From: a virus
IMG/VR virus record: IMGVR_UViG_3300020477_000051
Span: 1-43,724 of that record
Reading direction: 5' to 3' (one strand)
DNA length: 43,724 bases
Shown here: one piece after another, positions 575 to 43,724 of the stretch
Numbering within the stretch: position 1 is the first letter of the stretch
Layout: each line of letters opens with the position of its first letter
Translations under genes and position numbers: made by a program
Notes under the pieces: model-generated
What the model was told of the DNA's origin: nothing
Databases searched by the model: none
What the model saw: only the letters and a program-made list of their open reading frames with translations

Positions 575-639
575 CGTCGGAGAATTACGTCGGAGAATTA
601 CGTCGGAGAATAACGTCTGAGGATTACGTCGGAGAATTA
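575..639. repeat. Five tandem 13-bp repeats CGTCGGAGAATTA overlapping the terS 3' end
   Basis: Five adjoining 13-bp units start at 575, 588, 601, 614 and 627. Units 1, 2 and 5 are identical. Unit 3 has one change and unit 4 has two. The last 16 bases lie inside the terminase small subunit gene and include its stop codon. Such an array beside terS is a candidate packaging (pac) or replication-initiator site. Confidence 0.9.
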
Positions 640-1256
640 AGACGCTTGCCCTCTGGCACAATATGCCCTGTAAGGCTCTCAGCGCCCCCCTGTAGCTCTT
701 TCGAGACCTCGCTAAGGGTCTGGTATGCCTCCTCTATTCTACGTAGCTGTACGTCGCTCATAGCGGCAAGCTGATCTTCACTGAAATGGGCCACCATATG
801 CATGTGTTCATGTTGCTCCGGACGGAGCAATCCTAGGTGCCGGCACAACTGCTCGAGAGCTTGGTTCTTATTCCATGTCTTGATCCGAGAGACACGCGTC
901 GAGCCATCAGCGTTGGTCCCGACTTCGAAACTAGCAATACTCGCAGCCGCTTCGTCACTCAGCCGACTCATCGGGAGGAGGTTCCCGTCATCGTCCAATA
1001 GTTTACGCACGTCACTAAATGCGATCTGGGCCAGTTCGGCCAAGACATTCTCCGATCGGACGTTAAACCGGTCCATCTTTTCTCGGTGCAACCGGGCCAC
1101 CAGGGCTGCCGCTGGGGGTTTTTTTAACAAGCGCGAACCCTGTTGCGCGGCATTTTTGGGGCTATACCCTGCTCGAAGGGCTGCGTTCCCGATATGCAAA
1201 TCGACCACGTATTCACGGCAGAAACGTTCTTGTTTGGGGGTCAGTGTCTCGCTCAT
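624..1256 (-). CDS. terS: Terminase small subunit
   Basis: The 210-residue protein opens with LTPKQERFCREYVVDLHIGN followed by AALRAGYSPKNA, the N-terminal helix-turn-helix signature of the Terminase_2 family of small terminase subunits. A charged middle (SENVLAELAQIAFSDV) and a helical C-terminus would form the oligomerisation region. TerS recognises the packaging site on the concatemer and hands DNA to the large subunit. The gene is divergent from the plus-strand operon at 1340 and lies far from terL in this linearisation, though the two would be close on a circular map. No convincing ribosome site precedes the ATG. Its 3' end carries part of a 13-bp repeat array that may be its own target. 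Confidence 0.9.
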   Translation of the reverse strand: MSETLTPKQERFCREYVVDLHIGNAALRAGYSPKNAAQQGSRLLKKPPAAALVARLHREKMDRFNVRSENVLAELAQIAFSDVRKLLDDDGNLLPMSRLSDEAAASIASFEVGTNADGSTRVSRIKTWNKNQALEQLCRHLGLLRPEQHEHMHMVAHFSEDQLAAMSDVQLRRIEEAYQTLSEVSKELQGGAESLTGHIVPEGKRLNSPT

Positions 1257-2713: not shown

Positions 2714-2899
2714 ATGATTATTCAACTGATGGGTAATATGAGTGCGGTCGGCTGCGCCGGCCTGTCGGTGTATTTTATGGGCGTGTTCCCTGAGTGGTCT
2801 GTGGGACTCGCCTTTTTTTCTGGACTCCTCACGGCCATCGTGAGTCAATATCGGATGGGGATAGAACCCGAGCCTCCCGAAGAAACGGATAACGCATGA
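2714..2899 (+). CDS. Small membrane protein with two hydrophobic segments
   Basis: The 61-residue product has hydrophobic stretches around residues 3-23 (NMSAVGCAGLSVYFMGVF) and 28-46 (SVGLAFFSGLLTAIVSQY) and an acidic tail (EPEPPEETDNA). It would sit in the inner membrane as a two-helix hairpin. AAGGAG at 2703-2708 supports the start. It overlaps the next gene by 4 bp (ATGA). It could be a holin or an early host-interaction protein. Its early-operon position argues against a main holin role. Confidence 0.7.
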   Translation: MIIQLMGNMSAVGCAGLSVYFMGVFPEWSVGLAFFSGLLTAIVSQYRMGIEPEPPEETDNA

Positions 2900-3705
2900 G
2901 AATCATTTCCTATGGCGGAGGAGTGCAATCCACCGCGTTGTGTGTCTTAGCCATCCAAGGAAAGATCGGCCAGATTGATGCCGCGCTCTTTTCGAATGTC
3001 GGCGATGACTCCGAGCACCCCGCAAGTATTAGTTATGTCCGAGAGGTCATGCAGCCGTGGGCCGCAGAACGGGGATTAGCGGTCCATGAGCTTCATCGGA
3101 TCAAACGGACAGGGGAAACGGAAACGCTCTGGCAACGTCTGATGAAACCAAACTCTCGGTCGCTCCCGATCCCTGTGCGGATGTCGGACACGGGCGCTCC
3201 TGGGACACGCAGTTGCACCGTGGACTTCAAGATCAAGGTGATTGCCAAGTGGTTGAAACAACACGGCGCGAACAAAACTGATCCAGCGAAGGTGTGCATC
3301 GGTTTTAGCACGGATGAAGCGCATCGAGCGAGCAACCGCCATCCCAATGACTACGAAGTGCCTGAGTATCCCCTTCTTGACCTCAGACTCAACCGGCAGG
3401 ACTGTAAAAACATCATCGCGGAGGCAGGACTTCCTGTCCCGCCTAAGTCGAGTTGCTTTTTCTGTCCCTTCCACCGCCCAGTGATGTGGGAAAAGATGCG
3501 TCGGGACGAGCCTGAGTTATTCCAGAAAAGCGTGGAACTTGAGAATACGCTGAATGCGCGCCGGCGCTTGCTGAAGCGCGACGAAGTCTTTTTAACGCGG
3601 TTTGGGAAACCGCTTGAGGACGTGATCCAAGAACGGCAACCTGACTTACCCGGACTCGATGCTCCTGATACGGACTCCTGTGACGAAGGGTATTGTTGGA
3701 CTTAG
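2896..3705 (+). CDS. PP-loop ATPase, PAPS reductase-like family
   Basis: The 269-residue protein begins MRIISYGGGVQSTALC, a variant of the SGGxxS PP-loop that binds ATP in adenine nucleotide alpha-hydrolases (PAPS reductase, DndC, tRNA thiolases). Further support comes from DAALFSNVGDDSEHP (strand 2), the TRSCTVDFKIKVIAKWL segment near residue 105, and a late SSCFFCPFH motif near residue 187 whose cysteines could hold a metal or sulfur. Family members adenylate a substrate before sulfur transfer or reduction. Phage versions of this exact type are common and not functionally assigned. It overlaps the preceding gene by 4 bp. A role in nucleic-acid thiolation is possible but not shown. Confidence 0.85.
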   Translation: MRIISYGGGVQSTALCVLAIQGKIGQIDAALFSNVGDDSEHPASISYVREVMQPWAAERGLAVHELHRIKRTGETETLWQRLMKPNSRSLPIPVRMSDTGAPGTRSCTVDFKIKVIAKWLKQHGANKTDPAKVCIGFSTDEAHRASNRHPNDYEVPEYPLLDLRLNRQDCKNIIAEAGLPVPPKSSCFFCPFHRPVMWEKMRRDEPELFQKSVELENTLNARRRLLKRDEVFLTRFGKPLEDVIQERQPDLPGLDAPDTDSCDEGYCWT

Positions 3706-5475: not shown

Positions 5476-5776
5476 CTTCTGATGTTAAAAGAAATAAGCG
5501 TTCCGCTGGCCTAAAACAATACTCGGAAATGGTGCGTCGTTTCTCTCGACGTTGCCGATTCTCGATCTTCATCCCCAATTGTGTGCGACATTCGGAAACG
5601 CGAGAACGCCATCCATACATCCCCCCAAGCTGTAGAAGACGCGAGGCATCAATCCAGCAGTCCGGGTGGTCGCGAAAGAAACGGGCCACTTTGTCTCGAA
5701 GCACACTGGTATCCTCTGGGATATCCGGGGGATCCGGATCCCCAAACGCCTTGGTCGGGTCAAAGGTAAAACTCAT
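5453..5776 (-). CDS. Winged-helix-like DNA-binding protein candidate
   Basis: The 107-residue protein has AGGAG 7 bp before its ATG, which overlaps the stop of the radical SAM gene (ATGA). The middle portion (VARFFRDHPDCWIDASRLLQ, then WRSRVSECRTQLGMKIENR and ISEYCFRP) reads as a recognition-helix and wing arrangement seen in many small phage wHTH proteins. It may bind DNA near the adjacent nuclease or act as a regulator. No partner or operator is identified. Confidence 0.6.
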   Translation of the reverse strand: MSFTFDPTKAFGDPDPPDIPEDTSVLRDKVARFFRDHPDCWIDASRLLQLGGMYGWRSRVSECRTQLGMKIENRQRREKRRTISEYCFRPAERLFLLTSEDATGSEG

Positions 5777-6774
5777 AGGTTCTCCTTGTATGCAAAGGTT
5801 CGTTGATTGACATGCTGTCGTAGATTCCTGGGTTCATACTTCGCCGCTTTCCACTCCTCCCATGGGAAGTATTGGTCATAATGCCCAAGTACCCATCGCT
5901 GAAATCCGACAAGTTCTTTCGTTCGAACATACGGCATCGGGTAGGGCATCGCCCCAAACGCACGAAGTGTTTTCCGACGATACTCGCGGTCATCGTGGGT
6001 TTCGTCAGGCCAGTATCCGCACAACATATACACCATCACATGTTTCGGTTTCACTCCATGACGCACTAACGCGTCAAGTCCACGAAACAAGCGGTCTTCG
6101 TCCTTCCGATTGTCCCATGCGGTATAAATCTGTTTGTATTTCATGCCATCATCCCGATAATCCACAGACGCAATCGCCGCCGCTGTCTCATCAGTAAGCA
6201 TCCGGGCATTAATGCCCTGATTAAACGACACTTTGAACTGCCCCTCCTGAAGCTCGTGAATGCGAGCCTCCCATCCATCCTGTCCAAAGAAATCATTGTC
6301 CAACAGGAGAATGTGTCTCGGCCATGGATCACCGCGCCAAATGTCAGCGATCCGGTTGACCTCACGGACGGCTCCTTCTTTCGCTGGCACGACACAAAAC
6401 GAACACTTCAAGCGACATCCTCGTTGCGTAAATCCAATGGATGATGTCCATCGAGGATAGTCGGTGTAATCCAGTGGCCCTATCGAAGGGATGCCGGCAT
6501 CATCCAGCGTGGACATGCCATCCCATCCTGTGCCTCCAATCACGGCATCTGGATAGACAGTCTGGAAGGCGTCAGCGACAGGGCGTGTATGCGTAAAAAT
6601 TGTTGAGGCGTAGATCCGATCAGCGGGACGATCATCAAGATGCGGTTGTATCGCAGTGAGATTCCCAGCACGACGAAGCTCAACATCATCGCCCTGTGCT
6701 CTGTGGTGCGCGGCAATCCGCATCAACGCGAGATTAGGAAGTTTTCCGTCTAACTGGAAGAGACGAATCAACAT
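5773..6774 (-). CDS. Radical SAM enzyme
   Basis: The 333-residue protein is assigned from the motif GCRLKCSFCVVP, where Cys120, Cys124 and Cys127 form the CxxxCxxC site for the 4Fe-4S cluster that cleaves S-adenosylmethionine. Upstream, VIGGTGWDGMSTLDD resembles the front domain of B12-binding-type radical SAM proteins, although no cobalamin His motif is evident. LLLDNDFFGQDGWEARI and GVKPKHVMVYMLCGYWPDE fit later strands of the barrel. The start at 6774 begins the compact fold. A longer frame to 6864 is possible but would overlap another small ORF. The substrate is unknown. With the PP-loop enzyme at 2896-3705 it could belong to a sulfur or base modification route, but that is speculation. 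Confidence 0.85.
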   Translation of the reverse strand: MLIRLFQLDGKLPNLALMRIAAHHRAQGDDVELRRAGNLTAIQPHLDDRPADRIYASTIFTHTRPVADAFQTVYPDAVIGGTGWDGMSTLDDAGIPSIGPLDYTDYPRWTSSIGFTQRGCRLKCSFCVVPAKEGAVREVNRIADIWRGDPWPRHILLLDNDFFGQDGWEARIHELQEGQFKVSFNQGINARMLTDETAAAIASVDYRDDGMKYKQIYTAWDNRKDEDRLFRGLDALVRHGVKPKHVMVYMLCGYWPDETHDDREYRRKTLRAFGAMPYPMPYVRTKELVGFQRWVLGHYDQYFPWEEWKAAKYEPRNLRQHVNQRTFAYKENL

Positions 6775-6928
6775 CAGGTAACCCCAAAATACGCGCTGAC
6801 TCCCGACACGCCTGACACGCGCAATCATCAGACGCAAGAAATGAACCGTTGTCGCCCACCGCACGGTTCAACACGGCGGAAAGCGGGTGACAAGCAACAC
6901 CCGTGGGCAATATATCTTTCTCAGTCAC
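6734..6928 (-). CDS. Small Cys-containing ORF, possible gene
   Basis: A GTG at 6928 overlaps the glycosidase-like gene by a few bases and opens a 64-residue frame (MTEKDILPTGVACHPLSAVL, then DDCACQACRESARILGLPDV). The CAC-x-x-C pattern and composition look protein-like, and the frame fills an otherwise empty 146-bp gap. It overlaps the radical SAM start by 41 bp. No ribosome site is clear. It is a plausible but uncertain gene. Confidence 0.4.
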   Translation of the reverse strand: MTEKDILPTGVACHPLSAVLNRAVGDNGSFLASDDCACQACRESARILGLPDVDSSLPVRRKTS

Positions 6929-37894: not shown

Positions 37895-40267
37895 CTACTC
37901 CGGAATTCTTCCTGGTGGTGGCCCCGGCATCATGGGGGGACCACCGCCAGGAGGTCCACCTTGAGGTGGCATATTCGGTGGTAGTCCTTGAGGCGATTGC
38001 GCGGGAGTCCCCGTGTTTTGCGCCTCATCATTAGTTACCATGCGCTCGTATCGATCCTGCTCTCGATTTGAAAAATCCACTTCTCGATCAATCATTTTTT
38101 CAAGTCGATTAATTTCCGTCGTTAAAATTTCACTCGCTCGCTGTTGCTCAATCTTCGCCAACGCTCTGGCATTCTCACCCTGTTGGCGGATTTCTTCAAG
38201 CTGGATACGAGCCTGAGTATCACGCTCTTGAGACGCCGCATCCGCTGCGAGTTCCATCTCTTTCACCTTGACCTTGGCCCCTTCTTTGACTTGATCCGTC
38301 TGGATCGCTGTTTGCGCTTGCTCATACGCCTGAGATACTTGCTGTAATTGCTGCTCTAGTTGTTGGAGATGAGCCTGTACCGCAGGAGGAACCTGCCTCG
38401 GATCCATGTCATCACGCAACTGCGGAGGCAACATCTTCTTAAGACGCGCCGCAACCTGCTTCGCTCCCGGCCAATCCATGTTCTCAGCCAGTAAATCCCC
38501 GATCATCGGGAACGCATCAGGGTAGGATTGGACAAATTGAATCAGGGAATCCACCGCTTCCTGCCGTCTTGTCTGGAAACTTGGCCCCACTGACACCGTG
38601 ACATCGTATCGACCGACGTTCAGGTCGTAAATCCCATCCACCCCAGGGGGTAATTGAGGCTCTTGCGTGGCTGAAGGTTGGTTTTCCTGCCCACTAAACA
38701 CCATCACGTTGCGATCGTTGTTGTCTTCCCCGAGAATCCGCACCACACGCGCCACATCGTAGATTTTAGGAATTAAATCCACCAAAATGCGTCCCACTTG
38801 ACGCACCGCACGCCCCAAATTGTCCAGATAATGGCTATTTGCCATCTCATCCTGCTGCTGGCGACTGCGAATCGCTCGGCCAGACTCCTGTGCGCCACGA
38901 ATACCCAAGGAGGCGTCATTAAAGCCCCCCGTGGACTTCAAATCGTTGTCACTCTGGGCAATTGCCATCGTCATCGCCTGAATCGGGGGCTCAAACGGTT
39001 GTCGTGCCGGCGGCGGGGCAACTTGCCCACTCAATGACGTTTGTTTGTACTCTAAATAGGGGTAATTTCGGGTGTTGGCGGTGTTCCACTTATCACTATG
39101 GCCTTCAAACTGACCCTCGGCCCCAATAAATGGCGCACGAGGAGCCAACGCAATCATCTCAGTCTGCGCTGAAACCCAGTAATTGTACATCCGTTGCGGA
39201 TCCTGCGAGTCACGCACGATCCCTCGATAGTCTTTCACCCCGTTAATGTTGATTTCATCGCCTAAAACCGGAATAATCGGGATATATTTCCCCGGCCACT
39301 CCATTCCTTCGGTCTTATCATCACTGCCCTCGAGGATTTCCACCGCATTAATCAACGCCCACCGCACTTTTCGCAACACGACTTCGCGTTCAGCAACGAT
39401 GGTCAATGACTCAAGCTCTTCCGGGTCTGACGGCAAGGATGATCGGGGAATTCTGACGCGCTCCCCCTCCATGGTTTCCACCAACGCCATCTGTTGCTTC
39501 TCTTCTTCAAGGTAAAAATACTCCGCCACACGCACGCTGCCCTCTGGCATCCACTCTTCAACCGCATTTCCCGTTGACGTGAACTCTGATAACGCCGCCA
39601 TGGCCGATCGTGGGTAGCGCCAGCGATATTCCTCTACCGGGATATCCTCAACCACAAAGGCATATCGGGCATCTGACCCATCAGGGTTCTGTGACGCAGG
39701 ATCCACATAGACCGAAAAGGGATTCTGAACCCGTTGCACCTTGATTTCTTGGTCTAAACGGGTGGGATCATCATCAATGTAATCCGTAATGACACGCACA
39801 TACCCACGTCCCATCGTGACTTGATGCTCACCAGCCGTGGTATAGGCGACATCCGCATCGCTCTTAACTTCGATGTGACGCACGAGCCCCTGAAATACCT
39901 CAGCAATATCCGGATCGCCCTCATCTCCGGTCGGACTGACAGCCACCGCTGGACGCGACGCACGCTGGTTGTTCGTCACCTGACGAATAAATTGAGGAAG
40001 GCGATTAATGGTCAAACACGGACGTTGGTCTTGTTCTCGCTGAGACCGAACATGCTCAGGCCACTGCTCAGAGGCACGGAACCGCAAGTCTTCGAGCATC
40101 TTTTGACGCAACTCCGACTCCGCATCACTAATCGTCCGGAACCGCTCCTGCGCCAGTCGAAGAAACTGATCAACCGTTTCTCGTTGTTCCGTTGCGGGAT
40201 CGACCGTCTCTTCAACATCGACCTCTTCAACGACGCGTTGATATCCACCACCAGTTGGATCTGCCAT
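37895..40267 (-). CDS. Portal protein, P22-like
   Basis: The 790-residue protein has a charged helical start (TEQRETVDQFLRLAQERFRT), then RPCLTINRLPQFIRQVTNNQ, VYVDPASQNPDGSDARY and IRGAQESGRAIRSRQQQDEM. These are the signatures I know for the P22-type portal family, including the extended C-terminal helical barrel (QQLEQQLQQVSQAYEQAQTA). The C-terminus is Pro/Gly-rich (PPGGGPPMMPGPPPGRIPE). Twelve copies would form the DNA entry channel. It starts in a TAATGG overlap with the preceding gene. Confidence 0.93.
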   Translation of the reverse strand: MADPTGGGYQRVVEEVDVEETVDPATEQRETVDQFLRLAQERFRTISDAESELRQKMLEDLRFRASEQWPEHVRSQREQDQRPCLTINRLPQFIRQVTNNQRASRPAVAVSPTGDEGDPDIAEVFQGLVRHIEVKSDADVAYTTAGEHQVTMGRGYVRVITDYIDDDPTRLDQEIKVQRVQNPFSVYVDPASQNPDGSDARYAFVVEDIPVEEYRWRYPRSAMAALSEFTSTGNAVEEWMPEGSVRVAEYFYLEEEKQQMALVETMEGERVRIPRSSLPSDPEELESLTIVAEREVVLRKVRWALINAVEILEGSDDKTEGMEWPGKYIPIIPVLGDEININGVKDYRGIVRDSQDPQRMYNYWVSAQTEMIALAPRAPFIGAEGQFEGHSDKWNTANTRNYPYLEYKQTSLSGQVAPPPARQPFEPPIQAMTMAIAQSDNDLKSTGGFNDASLGIRGAQESGRAIRSRQQQDEMANSHYLDNLGRAVRQVGRILVDLIPKIYDVARVVRILGEDNNDRNVMVFSGQENQPSATQEPQLPPGVDGIYDLNVGRYDVTVSVGPSFQTRRQEAVDSLIQFVQSYPDAFPMIGDLLAENMDWPGAKQVAARLKKMLPPQLRDDMDPRQVPPAVQAHLQQLEQQLQQVSQAYEQAQTAIQTDQVKEGAKVKVKEMELAADAASQERDTQARIQLEEIRQQGENARALAKIEQQRASEILTTEINRLEKMIDREVDFSNREQDRYERMVTNDEAQNTGTPAQSPQGLPPNMPPQGGPPGGGPPMMPGPPPGRIPE

Positions 40268-40512: not shown

Positions 40513-41421
40513 TTATTGCCCTCGTAATAACGTGTCCATCTTCTCCAGAATCGAACGCTGTTTATCCGTATACACATCATGACGACGCATTTCATCGCGC
40601 TTGTCAGGGGCTAAATACCCCCGCACAAATGCATCGCGACCGCTGTATTTCCACCAGTTATCGAATGGTCTCTCCCCGTCTGGATATTGACGTTCGTAGA
40701 CCTGTCTCTCAAACGCTTTTTGCCTGTCCGTCATCGACTCATCAATCTCACCTAAGAGCTTCTGGAACTCAGGAGCCACCCCACGGGTTTCCCCCTCATC
40801 ACTTAAATGATGCAGCATGTCTCCGAATAACGCCTTCGGAAGATCCTCTGATTCCACTCGTTCATACAGTTCAATCGTAGGGTGATACCCCCCCGCATAA
40901 AACCCCTCCGTCGATTTATCAGACTCAGGACGCCTTGCGTCCGGTGGGCCAGATTCTTCGCGCCCCAGAAATTCCAAGGAACCTTTCACATAATTTGGGA
41001 CAGTCTGGTCACGTCGCCGATCGCGCACGCGAATGTCATACTCGCGAAGCGTCGGATACCGCTCATACACAATCTCCTGAGCCTCCCTGATCTGCACTTC
41101 GTTCTGACGCGGATCAGGCGAACTGCGCCACTCTCGCTGATAGACATCCATCGGAAGATTCGGGGCATACTTCTCCTGATTCAAACTCTCTTCCACCGGA
41201 GGATACGCGAAGGGATCACGAGGAGGTTGCTGTCCCGTATACCGGTCAAATTGAATCTCCTCATACGGGTGTGTCGCTAAATCTCTCATCCGATTCGGAT
41301 CCGGACTAGGCACCGCAGGGGCCACCTGCTGACGCACCGGAAGCTGTCCCCGGTCACGCATCACGCCCCGTGGATCCTGAGATAACCCCGCCATCGTGCC
41401 AAATCTCGATCGATATGCCAT
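40513..41421 (-). CDS. Unknown protein between terminase and portal
   Basis: The start at 41421 is chosen because its ATG overlaps the terminase stop (TAATGG). A second ATG lies four codons upstream at 41433. The 302-residue product starts MAYRSRFGTMAGLSQDPRGV. It is Arg/Asp/Glu/Pro-rich and has no signal peptide. Its C-terminal half has FDNWWKYSGRDAFVRGYLAP. The first five residues and 14 bp of coding start match the internal protein at 27299-29869. Function unknown. It may be a virion protein. Confidence 0.65.
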   Translation of the reverse strand: MAYRSRFGTMAGLSQDPRGVMRDRGQLPVRQQVAPAVPSPDPNRMRDLATHPYEEIQFDRYTGQQPPRDPFAYPPVEESLNQEKYAPNLPMDVYQREWRSSPDPRQNEVQIREAQEIVYERYPTLREYDIRVRDRRRDQTVPNYVKGSLEFLGREESGPPDARRPESDKSTEGFYAGGYHPTIELYERVESEDLPKALFGDMLHHLSDEGETRGVAPEFQKLLGEIDESMTDRQKAFERQVYERQYPDGERPFDNWWKYSGRDAFVRGYLAPDKRDEMRRHDVYTDKQRSILEKMDTLLRGQ

Positions 41422-42161
41422 TAGTGCATCCACCCCCCCGAATCATGGTGCATGAAGAAATAACGCATAGCAGGTTCTTCCTCCTGCAACGGTTCCGTCG
41501 ATAACCATTGCACTCCCGACAAAATCGCATACCGCGTCGCATCCATCAAGTGGTCGTTCTGCTTCACAATCCGTCCCTTGAGATCCCGACGATATAACCG
41601 GAACTCCTCCACCCACGCCTTACACGACGCAAAGACCTTCAACTGTCCCGTGCTCAATAACCGCCAGACTTCAAAGAGACCCGACTCCACCGCATTCGGG
41701 GCCACGTCGAGAAATAACCCCATGTCCACGTAATCCTGAATCAGTTGCCGTCCGTCATTCTGACTGCGCCCACGAGACGCCGGGTCAATCCGTCCGGGAA
41801 TCCACATCCCTCGCGCCCGAATCGCATCCGCATGCACACTCGGTTCCGCTTCCCCACGCTTATGCACCGCATACACATAGCGAATGTTCGTCTCCCGATC
41901 ATGGGCAATCCAGACCGCCGCCGTGCAATTCCACCCCACATCCAACCCATACCCACGCGTATAGTGCGCGGGAAGCTCGAAATCCTCCACCAGAATGTCC
42001 GTCTCAGGGACCGGGAAAATCGCCCCCGAGCCCAACTGCGGGACGCCCTTCGTACGGGCCTCACGCTGATGAGGGGGGATCGACGCAATTAACTCGTCTT
42101 TTTCCGATTGTGACAGATGAGGGACATCATCCCAATCCGCCATGACGACGAACTTCGCCAT
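41421..42161 (-). CDS. terL: Terminase large subunit, C-terminal nuclease half (separate ORF)
   Basis: The 246-residue protein starts in a TGATG overlap with the nested holin-like gene. Its sequence opens DWDDVPHLSQSEKDELIASI and continues QLGSGAIFPVPETDI. The RNase H-like nuclease follows: GLDVGWNCTAAVW (Asp74), GRIDPASRGRSQ (Asp126) and NDHLMDATRY (Asp203 and Asp207). These residues would bind two metals to cut concatemeric DNA. In ordinary relatives this domain is fused to the ATPase encoded here at 42294-43136. Together the halves total 526 residues, a normal TerL length. Confidence 0.9.
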   Translation of the reverse strand: MAKFVVMADWDDVPHLSQSEKDELIASIPPHQREARTKGVPQLGSGAIFPVPETDILVEDFELPAHYTRGYGLDVGWNCTAAVWIAHDRETNIRYVYAVHKRGEAEPSVHADAIRARGMWIPGRIDPASRGRSQNDGRQLIQDYVDMGLFLDVAPNAVESGLFEVWRLLSTGQLKVFASCKAWVEEFRLYRRDLKGRIVKQNDHLMDATRYAILSGVQWLSTEPLQEEEPAMRYFFMHHDSGGWMH

Positions 42162-42334
42162 CAGCTACTCGAACCACCACCCAACGGCTGGTGCGTGAAA
42201 AAACGCAACACAATGTTCGCCACCGCTAACACCTGTCCCAGCGCTTCAGGATTCGGTTGCTCCACCGCAGAGGCGACCCCCAACGTCGCTAAATTAAGCC
42301 AGAAGGTCTTCGACTTCCACCATGCTTTCATCAT
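42161..42334 (-). CDS. Holin-like membrane protein nested between the terminase halves
   Basis: The start at 42334 is supported by AAAGGA 3 bp upstream. The 57-residue product has a basic start (MMKAWWKSKT), a hydrophobic segment (FWLNLATLGVASAV), a polar turn (EQPNPEALG) and a second hydrophobic segment (VLAVANIVLRFF), ending HQPLGGGSSS. This is the layout of small two-helix phage holins. It overlaps the end of the terminase ATPase gene by 41 bp and the nuclease gene by 1 bp. It could make pores at lysis. Confidence 0.8.
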   Translation of the reverse strand: MMKAWWKSKTFWLNLATLGVASAVEQPNPEALGQVLAVANIVLRFFTHQPLGGGSSS

Positions 42335-43136
42335 CTGTCCTTTCGAGAAGAGGAGTCTCCCCCTCAATAATCGGCGTCACCCCATCTTCCGGAAGTCGCC
42401 CCCCAGGAAGAAACTCCAACACCAACGGCGTTAACCCCTGCAACGGCGTAAACGTCAACATCAACATCCCGCCCGAAAAATCAGAGGTCTGCGCCGTGCG
42501 AAGCAGACACTCCACGTAAATGTCATCCGGAGGCTCTTCGTCCAACCAGACCCCGTGCTTCCGCGTCCCCTGAAACGCCTCGCGACGCTGGTCATAACTC
42601 TTCAGCCCCAATTCCGAGACACACGGCGCTCCATGCTCACGCTCCACATGCTTCACCCACACCGTCTCAATCGCATCCGTGACCCCAGGCTTTCGAGAAA
42701 AATGCTCAATTAAATGCCTCGGAATAAACCCAGACCCGATCGCATTCATCGGCCCCATTAACTCCAATTGCCCAATGTCACGCACCGTCTTCGATGTGTC
42801 ACCCACCGCCCACCATGAGACCGGATGCTCAAACTGACGCCCCGCCCACCACGAAGGATAAATGCCCGTTAAATGCGCCGTCGTCTCATACGCCCCCGCC
42901 TGGGTCTTCCCAATCCGGTTCGCCGCAATCATTAACCGCTCTCGAGCCTGAGACGAAAAAAAGGCCAGATGCTTGCGATACAACGCCCGACACATCCCCG
43001 TATGATCTTCCGCCCGAAACGACGCCTCGTCACACGCCGACGTGCAATCCGGGAAATACGTGAAAAACTTCCCAGACTCCCGATCCGCTCGTAACGCCGC
43101 AATCGCCGATAACGTCTCGTCAGGAGACGAACTCAT
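42294..43136 (-). CDS. terL: Terminase large subunit, N-terminal ATPase half (separate ORF)
   Basis: The 280-residue protein holds the packaging ATPase: Walker A AANRIGKTQ (71-79), an adenine-side WWAVGDTSKT, Walker B GVWLDEEPP (195-203) and the C-motif LMLTFTPLQG (from about 225). It ends soon after, at a stop at 42294, with no nuclease domain. That domain is the separate ORF at 41421-42161. GGTAGGATGCG precedes the ATG as a modest ribosome site. The ATP-driven motor would need both polypeptides. Confidence 0.92.
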   Translation of the reverse strand: MSSSPDETLSAIAALRADRESGKFFTYFPDCTSACDEASFRAEDHTGMCRALYRKHLAFFSSQARERLMIAANRIGKTQAGAYETTAHLTGIYPSWWAGRQFEHPVSWWAVGDTSKTVRDIGQLELMGPMNAIGSGFIPRHLIEHFSRKPGVTDAIETVWVKHVEREHGAPCVSELGLKSYDQRREAFQGTRKHGVWLDEEPPDDIYVECLLRTAQTSDFSGGMLMLTFTPLQGLTPLVLEFLPGGRLPEDGVTPIIEGETPLLERTDDESMVEVEDLLA

Positions 43137-43142
43137 CGCATC

Positions 43143-43376
43143 CTACCGGTAAATACCAGGACGCCCCGTCGTGCCTCGCGCACGCGCCACACGGTTCTTG
43201 TGCTCACTTCGCGCCGATCCAGGGCCACCCTTCCGCGTCCCAGACGCCGGTTTCGAAATCTTCGTCCCCGTCCGACGTAACCCCCGACTCGGACGATTAA
43301 TCTCTCGCTCCACTTGTCCAGAGGTTCGCATGAATCTTCCAACAATATTGCCGGTTTTTGGTAATTTTTTCGCCAT
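43143..43376 (-). CDS. Small basic hypothetical protein before the terminase
   Basis: The 77-residue protein is very basic (MAKKLPKTGNIVGRFMRTSG, GTRKGGPGSARSEHKNRVAR) with few hydrophobics. It might bind DNA or a virion component. It lies 6 bp before the terminase ATPase gene. The overlapping shifted frame was not chosen because it lacks a reasonable start. The family is unknown. Confidence 0.6.
   Translation of the reverse strand: MAKKLPKTGNIVGRFMRTSGQVEREINRPSRGLRRTGTKISKPASGTRKGGPGSARSEHKNRVARARGTTGRPGIYR

Positions 43377-43690: not shown

Positions 43691-43724
<34 letters not shown>

Follow-up and report, generated by a model that had tools for sequence, protein, structure and literature searches.

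The terminase large subunit gene of P22-like phages is repeatedly split at one site

Anatomy of the split terL locus

The window analysed here is the whole 43,724-nucleotide stretch of the viral record IMGVR_UViG_3300020477_000051. Its terminase large subunit gene (terL) consists of two minus-strand ORFs totalling 526 amino acids, with a small membrane-type ORF nested at their junction. The first (42294..43136, 280 amino acids) ends in a TAA stop codon and encodes the ATPase half, which matched Pfam Terminase_6N (3.6e-10) and PHROG 31467 (2.5e-54). It carries the Walker A (AANRIGKTQ) and Walker B (VWLDEE) motifs and the coupling segment (TFTPLQG) of a P-loop ASCE core, and it terminates in a non-conserved tail of about 30 residues past FLPGG. 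Across 16 relatives, 33 columns of this half were invariant, and N73, R74, G76, K77, D199, E200 and T230/P231 did not vary, as is expected of an ASCE P-loop ATPase.

The second minus-strand ORF (41421..42161, 246 amino acids) has its own ATG and encodes the lid subdomain and the RNase H-like nuclease (Pfam Terminase_6C, 1.2e-11). The acidic residues D74, D126, D203 and D207 are retained and invariant among relatives, consistent with an RNase H-like active site, and profile searches matched this half to the P22 gp2 nuclease (4dkw, 1.6e-38) and to D6E TerL (5oe8, 1.1e-8). An AF2 model of the nuclease half (pLDDT 82.9) was matched to 4dkw by Foldseek with a TMt of 0.85. TerL of the P22 type is thus encoded in the window not as one chain but by two ORFs that are given as lying in different frames and are separated by a net interval of 132 bp from the ATPase stop to the nuclease start (42162..42293, minus strand).

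The nested ORF (42161..42334, minus strand, 57 amino acids) shares 41 bp with the ATPase ORF and 1 bp with the nuclease start, the latter in the sequence TGATG. It starts at the first of two adjacent ATG codons, 3-6 nt downstream of a Shine-Dalgarno sequence (AAGGA). Relatives with 68-85% identity lie within the terL genes of three other loci (L006, L008 and L017); the gap of L006 has the same minimal gene order as the window, with overlaps of 23 and 4 bp. Further relatives occur outside terL, in L110-L122. Pairwise pN/pS for this ORF ranged from 0.17 to 0.48 (median 0.32). Its conservation indicates that it is a real gene, apparently coupled to both neighbours and served by its own Shine-Dalgarno sequence.

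The coordinates, both overlaps and the residue total of the original prediction were all reproduced. It had also described a clean stop at the 42294 end, a nuclease half with its own ATG and catalytic aspartates, and a complete middle ORF with its own ribosome site; each of these was confirmed, the last being kept in three relatives. No relative has an intact terL of which the middle ORF is simply an out-of-frame segment.

Except for terL, the window genome is that of an ordinary P22-like podovirus. The next large genes downstream encode a 306-amino-acid protein and then a P22-like portal (37895..40267, minus strand, Pfam P22_portal, 1.6e-175), followed by genes for scaffold, major head and head-closure proteins. 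In a circular or circularly permuted genome, the small terminase subunit gene (624..1256, minus strand, PHROG 51, 1.5e-29) would directly precede terL. Elsewhere the window carries auxiliary metabolic genes for a radical SAM protein (5773-6864, minus strand, phrog_9298) and a phosphoadenosine phosphosulfate reductase (2896-3705, plus strand, phrog_424). The contig is closed by a 31-base poly-C/poly-G run (43694-43724) that is likely a sequencing artefact.

Recurrence of the split and position of the break

The three window ORFs were searched by tblastn against 79 related viral contigs. All 14 of the closest relatives recovered (74-86% identity) were split at the same place as the window, and the search for the same gene order found the middle ORF in the three loci named above. 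The window and these 14 relatives form one clade (support 100*) in which every terL is split, with a gap that differs in size in each relative (about 0.16-1.5 kb). Among the 15 genomes of this clade, median pairwise pN/pS was 0.23 for the ATPase half and 0.20 for the nuclease half, indicating that both fragments are conserved under purifying selection there, as in a gene in pieces of the Aeh1 nrdA type.

Beyond this clade, we classed 145 dereplicated TerL loci of the P22/Terminase_6-like family after two further scans. Eighty-seven were fused and 58 were split, 34 of the latter with an insert of more than 60 bp (up to 2.8 kb) and 24 without. Among the prophages of bacterial genomes, 58 terL loci were complete and 26 of them were split, a count that could include defective elements; some of these prophages are in cultured isolates, and the hosts include Sphingomonas melonis, Azospirillum spp., Acetobacter musti and Eilatimonas. 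In a 142-row tree, made by a quick search from concatenated halves, the fused or split label changes at least 22 times, gains and losses pooled, and nine of these changes are forced by starred branches. By these comparisons the split is family-wide and recurrent, well beyond the single case that had been predicted.

To map the breaks, the intact 485-amino-acid TerL of a fused relative (L019) was used as query against 204 records. Seventy-six of the 77 breaks fell at residues 220-259 of the query; the sole outlier was in L207, where a second apparent break, seen in no other terL, lies within the nuclease (query residues 391-395). Breaks within the ATPase or nuclease cores were sought separately in 203 loci and none was found. 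In an AF2 model of the intact protein (pLDDT 90.5), the only interior segment below 50 was residues 237-239, between a helix (222-227) and a strand (244-249), with the lid helices (259-279) next. This is the model's single disordered interior loop, with the ASCE core on one side of it and the lid on the other.

What the genomes show directly is that terL is split, that the split recurs, that it has a single break site, that both halves are under selection in the clade of the window and that stop and start codons overlap, as described below. It could be argued that such a split is a sequencing or assembly error, or a pseudogene in decay, and the window is indeed a contig from a metagenomic collection with a poly-G end. 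However, 14 independent contigs of the clade share the split, isolate genomes have it as well, the breaks cluster at one site while the cores are free of them, and both halves have retained their catalytic residues with pN/pS of about 0.2. We consider an error or decay extremely unlikely. The original prediction had already argued that the split is not a frameshift error, and this is borne out because it recurs, has stop-start overlaps and occurs in isolate genomes.

Stop and start codons overlap in 22 of 38 insert-free splits, by 4 nt in 16 (NTGA) and by 1 nt in six (TAATG or TGATG). Overlaps of these types are the usual form of translational coupling, which they would be expected to provide here. 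The relative frame of the second cistron was at offset 2 in 25 of these 38 splits, and this preference for one frame is what would be seen if ribosomal frameshifting, or bypassing as in T4 gene 60, yielded a full-length TerL. Yet both other frames occur (offset 1 in 12 splits and offset 0 in one), and the ATGA and TAATG overlaps account for the excess at offset 2. Inserts can be as long as 2.8 kb and contain several genes, the nuclease half mostly begins at a start codon of its own that is no more than about 15 residues from the WDD motif, and no slippery site was seen on inspection by eye. Recoding of this kind is therefore very unlikely.

Another explanation is that the interval is the remnant of a self-splicing intron or an intein, so that one TerL is restored after splicing. 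This has precedent, since terL genes interrupted by spliced group I introns are documented in the Jug phages (PMC12363816) and in the Bastillevirinae SIOphi and phiAGATE (PMC11878797). Like the loci studied here, those genes are in fragments with endonucleases between them, but they are spliced to give one protein, whereas this family has overlapping stop-start cistrons and no detected intron. No Rfam intron was found in window positions 41400-43200 or in ten split relatives, a search that degenerate introns may escape, and no intein family was matched among the inserts. Many splits consist of a stop-start overlap of 1-4 nt with no insert whatsoever, and the net interval of the window is just 132 bp and carries a conserved ORF. 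We regard splicing as highly improbable.

A probable terminase motor of two chains

The explanation that we favour, and hold as a whole to be very probable, is that TerL is made as two unspliced chains that associate non-covalently, the gene being broken at a loop that tolerates fission. Adjacent, translationally coupled cistrons would give an ASCE ATPase core of 280 amino acids and a lid and RNase H-like nuclease chain of 246 amino acids, which would assemble into the packaging motor. The break would fall in a flexible loop past the coupling helix and ahead of the strand running into the lid; fission at this loop appears to have been tolerated many times in the TerL family. From the genomic evidence we infer that both chains are produced, associate and have motor activity. 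The two-polypeptide motor of the original prediction is strongly supported by the sequence comparisons, namely the recurrence at one site, the stop-start overlaps, the purifying selection, the lack of a detected intron and the isolate genomes. Against such a motor, the separated domains of T4 gp17 are reported to retain partial activities without restoring packaging.

Because a PDB sequence search with the ATPase half returned only an irrelevant weak match, we used a fold search for TerL. The AF2 model of the intact relative matched D6E TerL (3.3e-21) and the P22 nuclease (TMt 0.86). The profile of the nuclease half begins its alignment to D6E TerL at residue 200, short of the linker (residues 230-241), so the cut would part the ASCE core from the lid and nuclease together rather than fall at the linker between the ATPase and nuclease domains. 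The family thus resembles P22 gp2 and D6E TerL (5oe8) in sequence family, fold, catalytic residues and neighbourhood (TerS and a P22-like portal), although TerL is a single chain in the known P22 and D6E cases.

In the model of the lone nuclease half from the window, the first eight residues, which correspond to strand 244-249, were disordered (pLDDT 47). The same strand is ordered in the fused model. This would fit, without proving, the folding of this strand against the ATPase half. It also lends some support to a bolder reading, which we put forward as possible but doubtful: that the covalent link between ASCE core and lid is dispensable throughout the family, that the nuclease chain supplies a beta-strand and the lid in trans, and that this is a recurrent fission point of a mechanochemical motor that may allow the dosage or exchange of motor and cutter to vary independently.

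Packaging motors are treated as single-chain proteins, and the leading models send the power of ATP hydrolysis through the lid, which has a covalent joint with the ATPase core. If this joint is cut in many lineages, these phages would offer ready-made two-chain motors for testing which contacts bear force, and the recurrent splits at the same spot would be a natural test of how the motor halves cooperate. There is also a practical consequence: terL is one of the main marker genes used to classify phages, and copies in two parts will probably be mis-annotated or miscounted.

Terminase genes interrupted by other genes are known from the herpesviruses, where the two exons of UL15 flank UL16 and UL17 and are spliced in the eukaryotic nucleus; that gene, however, gives one protein. 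Among phages, essential enzymes encoded as two cistrons with an endonuclease gene or spacer between them include nrdA of Aeromonas phage Aeh1 (a mobE insertion), the T4 topoisomerase gp39/gp60 and gene 43A/43B of phage 25/44RR, and the chains of Aeh1 NrdA and of gp43A/B co-purify and form functional enzyme (PMC2988022). The terL of the window is like these in its arrangement, but it encodes a packaging motor, one loop is broken repeatedly and often without an insert, and most of the inserts encode something other than an endonuclease. The split RNA polymerase of HTVC019P-type pelagiphages (PMC6811365) and the split DNA polymerase of MEP401-type phages (PMC10580990) are likewise clade-conserved fissions of essential phage genes; they affect other enzymes in single lineages, and the parts of these two reports available to us describe no repeated hot spot. 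Two-cistron phage enzymes and intron-split terL genes are therefore already known. In literature mostly outside subscription journals, we came across no account of an unspliced TerL encoded by two cistrons or of a single recurrent break site, and the unspliced split TerL, which is unusually broad in its distribution, appears to be a new form of gene in pieces.

Genes at the junction and origin of the split

The content of the insert differs in every relative, and includes holin-like proteins, HNH nucleases, Dam methylase, HipA, tail-fibre-like proteins and proteins without a match. Within the clade of the window, the further gaps hold a family of 84-amino-acid proteins (nine members), a protein that matched a PHROG “holin” (L010, 1.6e-3), HNH-like fragments and genes without assignment. 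The best reading of these comparisons is that the terL junction is a turnover site for unrelated small genes in this clade, occupied in the window by a putative small membrane protein. An essential gene would thus serve as a landing site for accessory genes.

The original prediction called the middle ORF holin-like and proposed that packaging and lysis genes are linked. The product is both short and hydrophobic, and one of its distant relatives, in L126, adjoins an endolysin. On the other hand, it matched no family in Pfam or PHROG, and hence no holin family, and its close relatives in other phages have assorted neighbours that include replication-type genes and are mostly not lysis genes. The best 19-residue Kyte-Doolittle means of its relatives are modest (1.0-1.3) and fall below the usual cut of 1.6 for membrane segments. 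Its identity as a holin is unproven. One could still propose that the junction is a selected packaging-lysis cassette in which a holin is coupled to terminase synthesis, given the apparent coupling of the ORF in the window, its three relatives within terL, the PHROG match in L010 and the endolysin neighbour in L126. The inserts, however, often have no relation to lysis, and many split terminases have no insert at all, so the functional link found no support and a selected cassette is unlikely. A conserved lysis cassette was rejected because the insert content turns over.

How the split arose may differ between lineages. A complete HNH endonuclease lies between the terL halves of L057 (phrog_953, 1.1e-61) and an endonuclease VII-type gene is at the junction of L108 (2.1e-34). 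In MW202785.1 (L083), whose GenBank record annotates two genes as “large terminase protein” and is thus a case of the mis-annotation mentioned above, a 46-amino-acid ORF (2364-2504) is the remnant of an HNH C-terminal DNA-binding region (phrog_99, 4.7e-5) and overlaps both terL neighbours by ATGA. In L058 and L059 the halves overlap by ATGA with nothing inserted between them, and the leader of their nuclease half is similar to that of L057; these loci are candidates for the occupied (L057) and empty (L058 and L059) states of one junction. Such a distribution is what would be seen if endonucleases came and went at the junction.

Since an HNH gene or its remnant is found at the junction in some lineages, endonuclease invasion is a likely route for part of the cases: a homing-type HNH endonuclease would at least sometimes enter the junction, and other genes could occupy it later. 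HNH genes are present at only a minority of junctions, and the window has no mobile endonuclease at its own, unlike Aeh1 nrdA. Because most junctions contain other genes or nothing, cistron fission alone in a loop that tolerates it is just as good a candidate for many of the lineages, where a simple stop-start fission could be enough. A role for HNH endonucleases in most splits is unproven.

Several further features of the inserts were noted. The family of 84-115-amino-acid proteins (GLKLLPYIV...; nine members) is found in the inserts of L002, L003, L009, L010, L011, L013, L014, L016 and L039, and is often encoded by the last gene ahead of the nuclease half. The split prophage terL genes of three Azospirillum species (L211, L215 and L224) are interrupted at the same site by inserts of roughly 1.2, 2.7 and 0.4 kb, respectively, and form a useful set for comparison in hosts that are in culture. 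In L189 (4744-6844) a HipA-type toxin gene and a membrane protein gene lie inside the split terL on the opposite strand. Finally, a 40-bp element that contains two palindromes, GGTACATACC and GGTATATACC, at a spacing of about 21 bp, is present in L001 (1367-1406, plus strand) and L010 (2946-2985, minus strand), at opposite edges of the insert and in opposite orientation. It is absent from the window and is possibly an operator or a recombination site.
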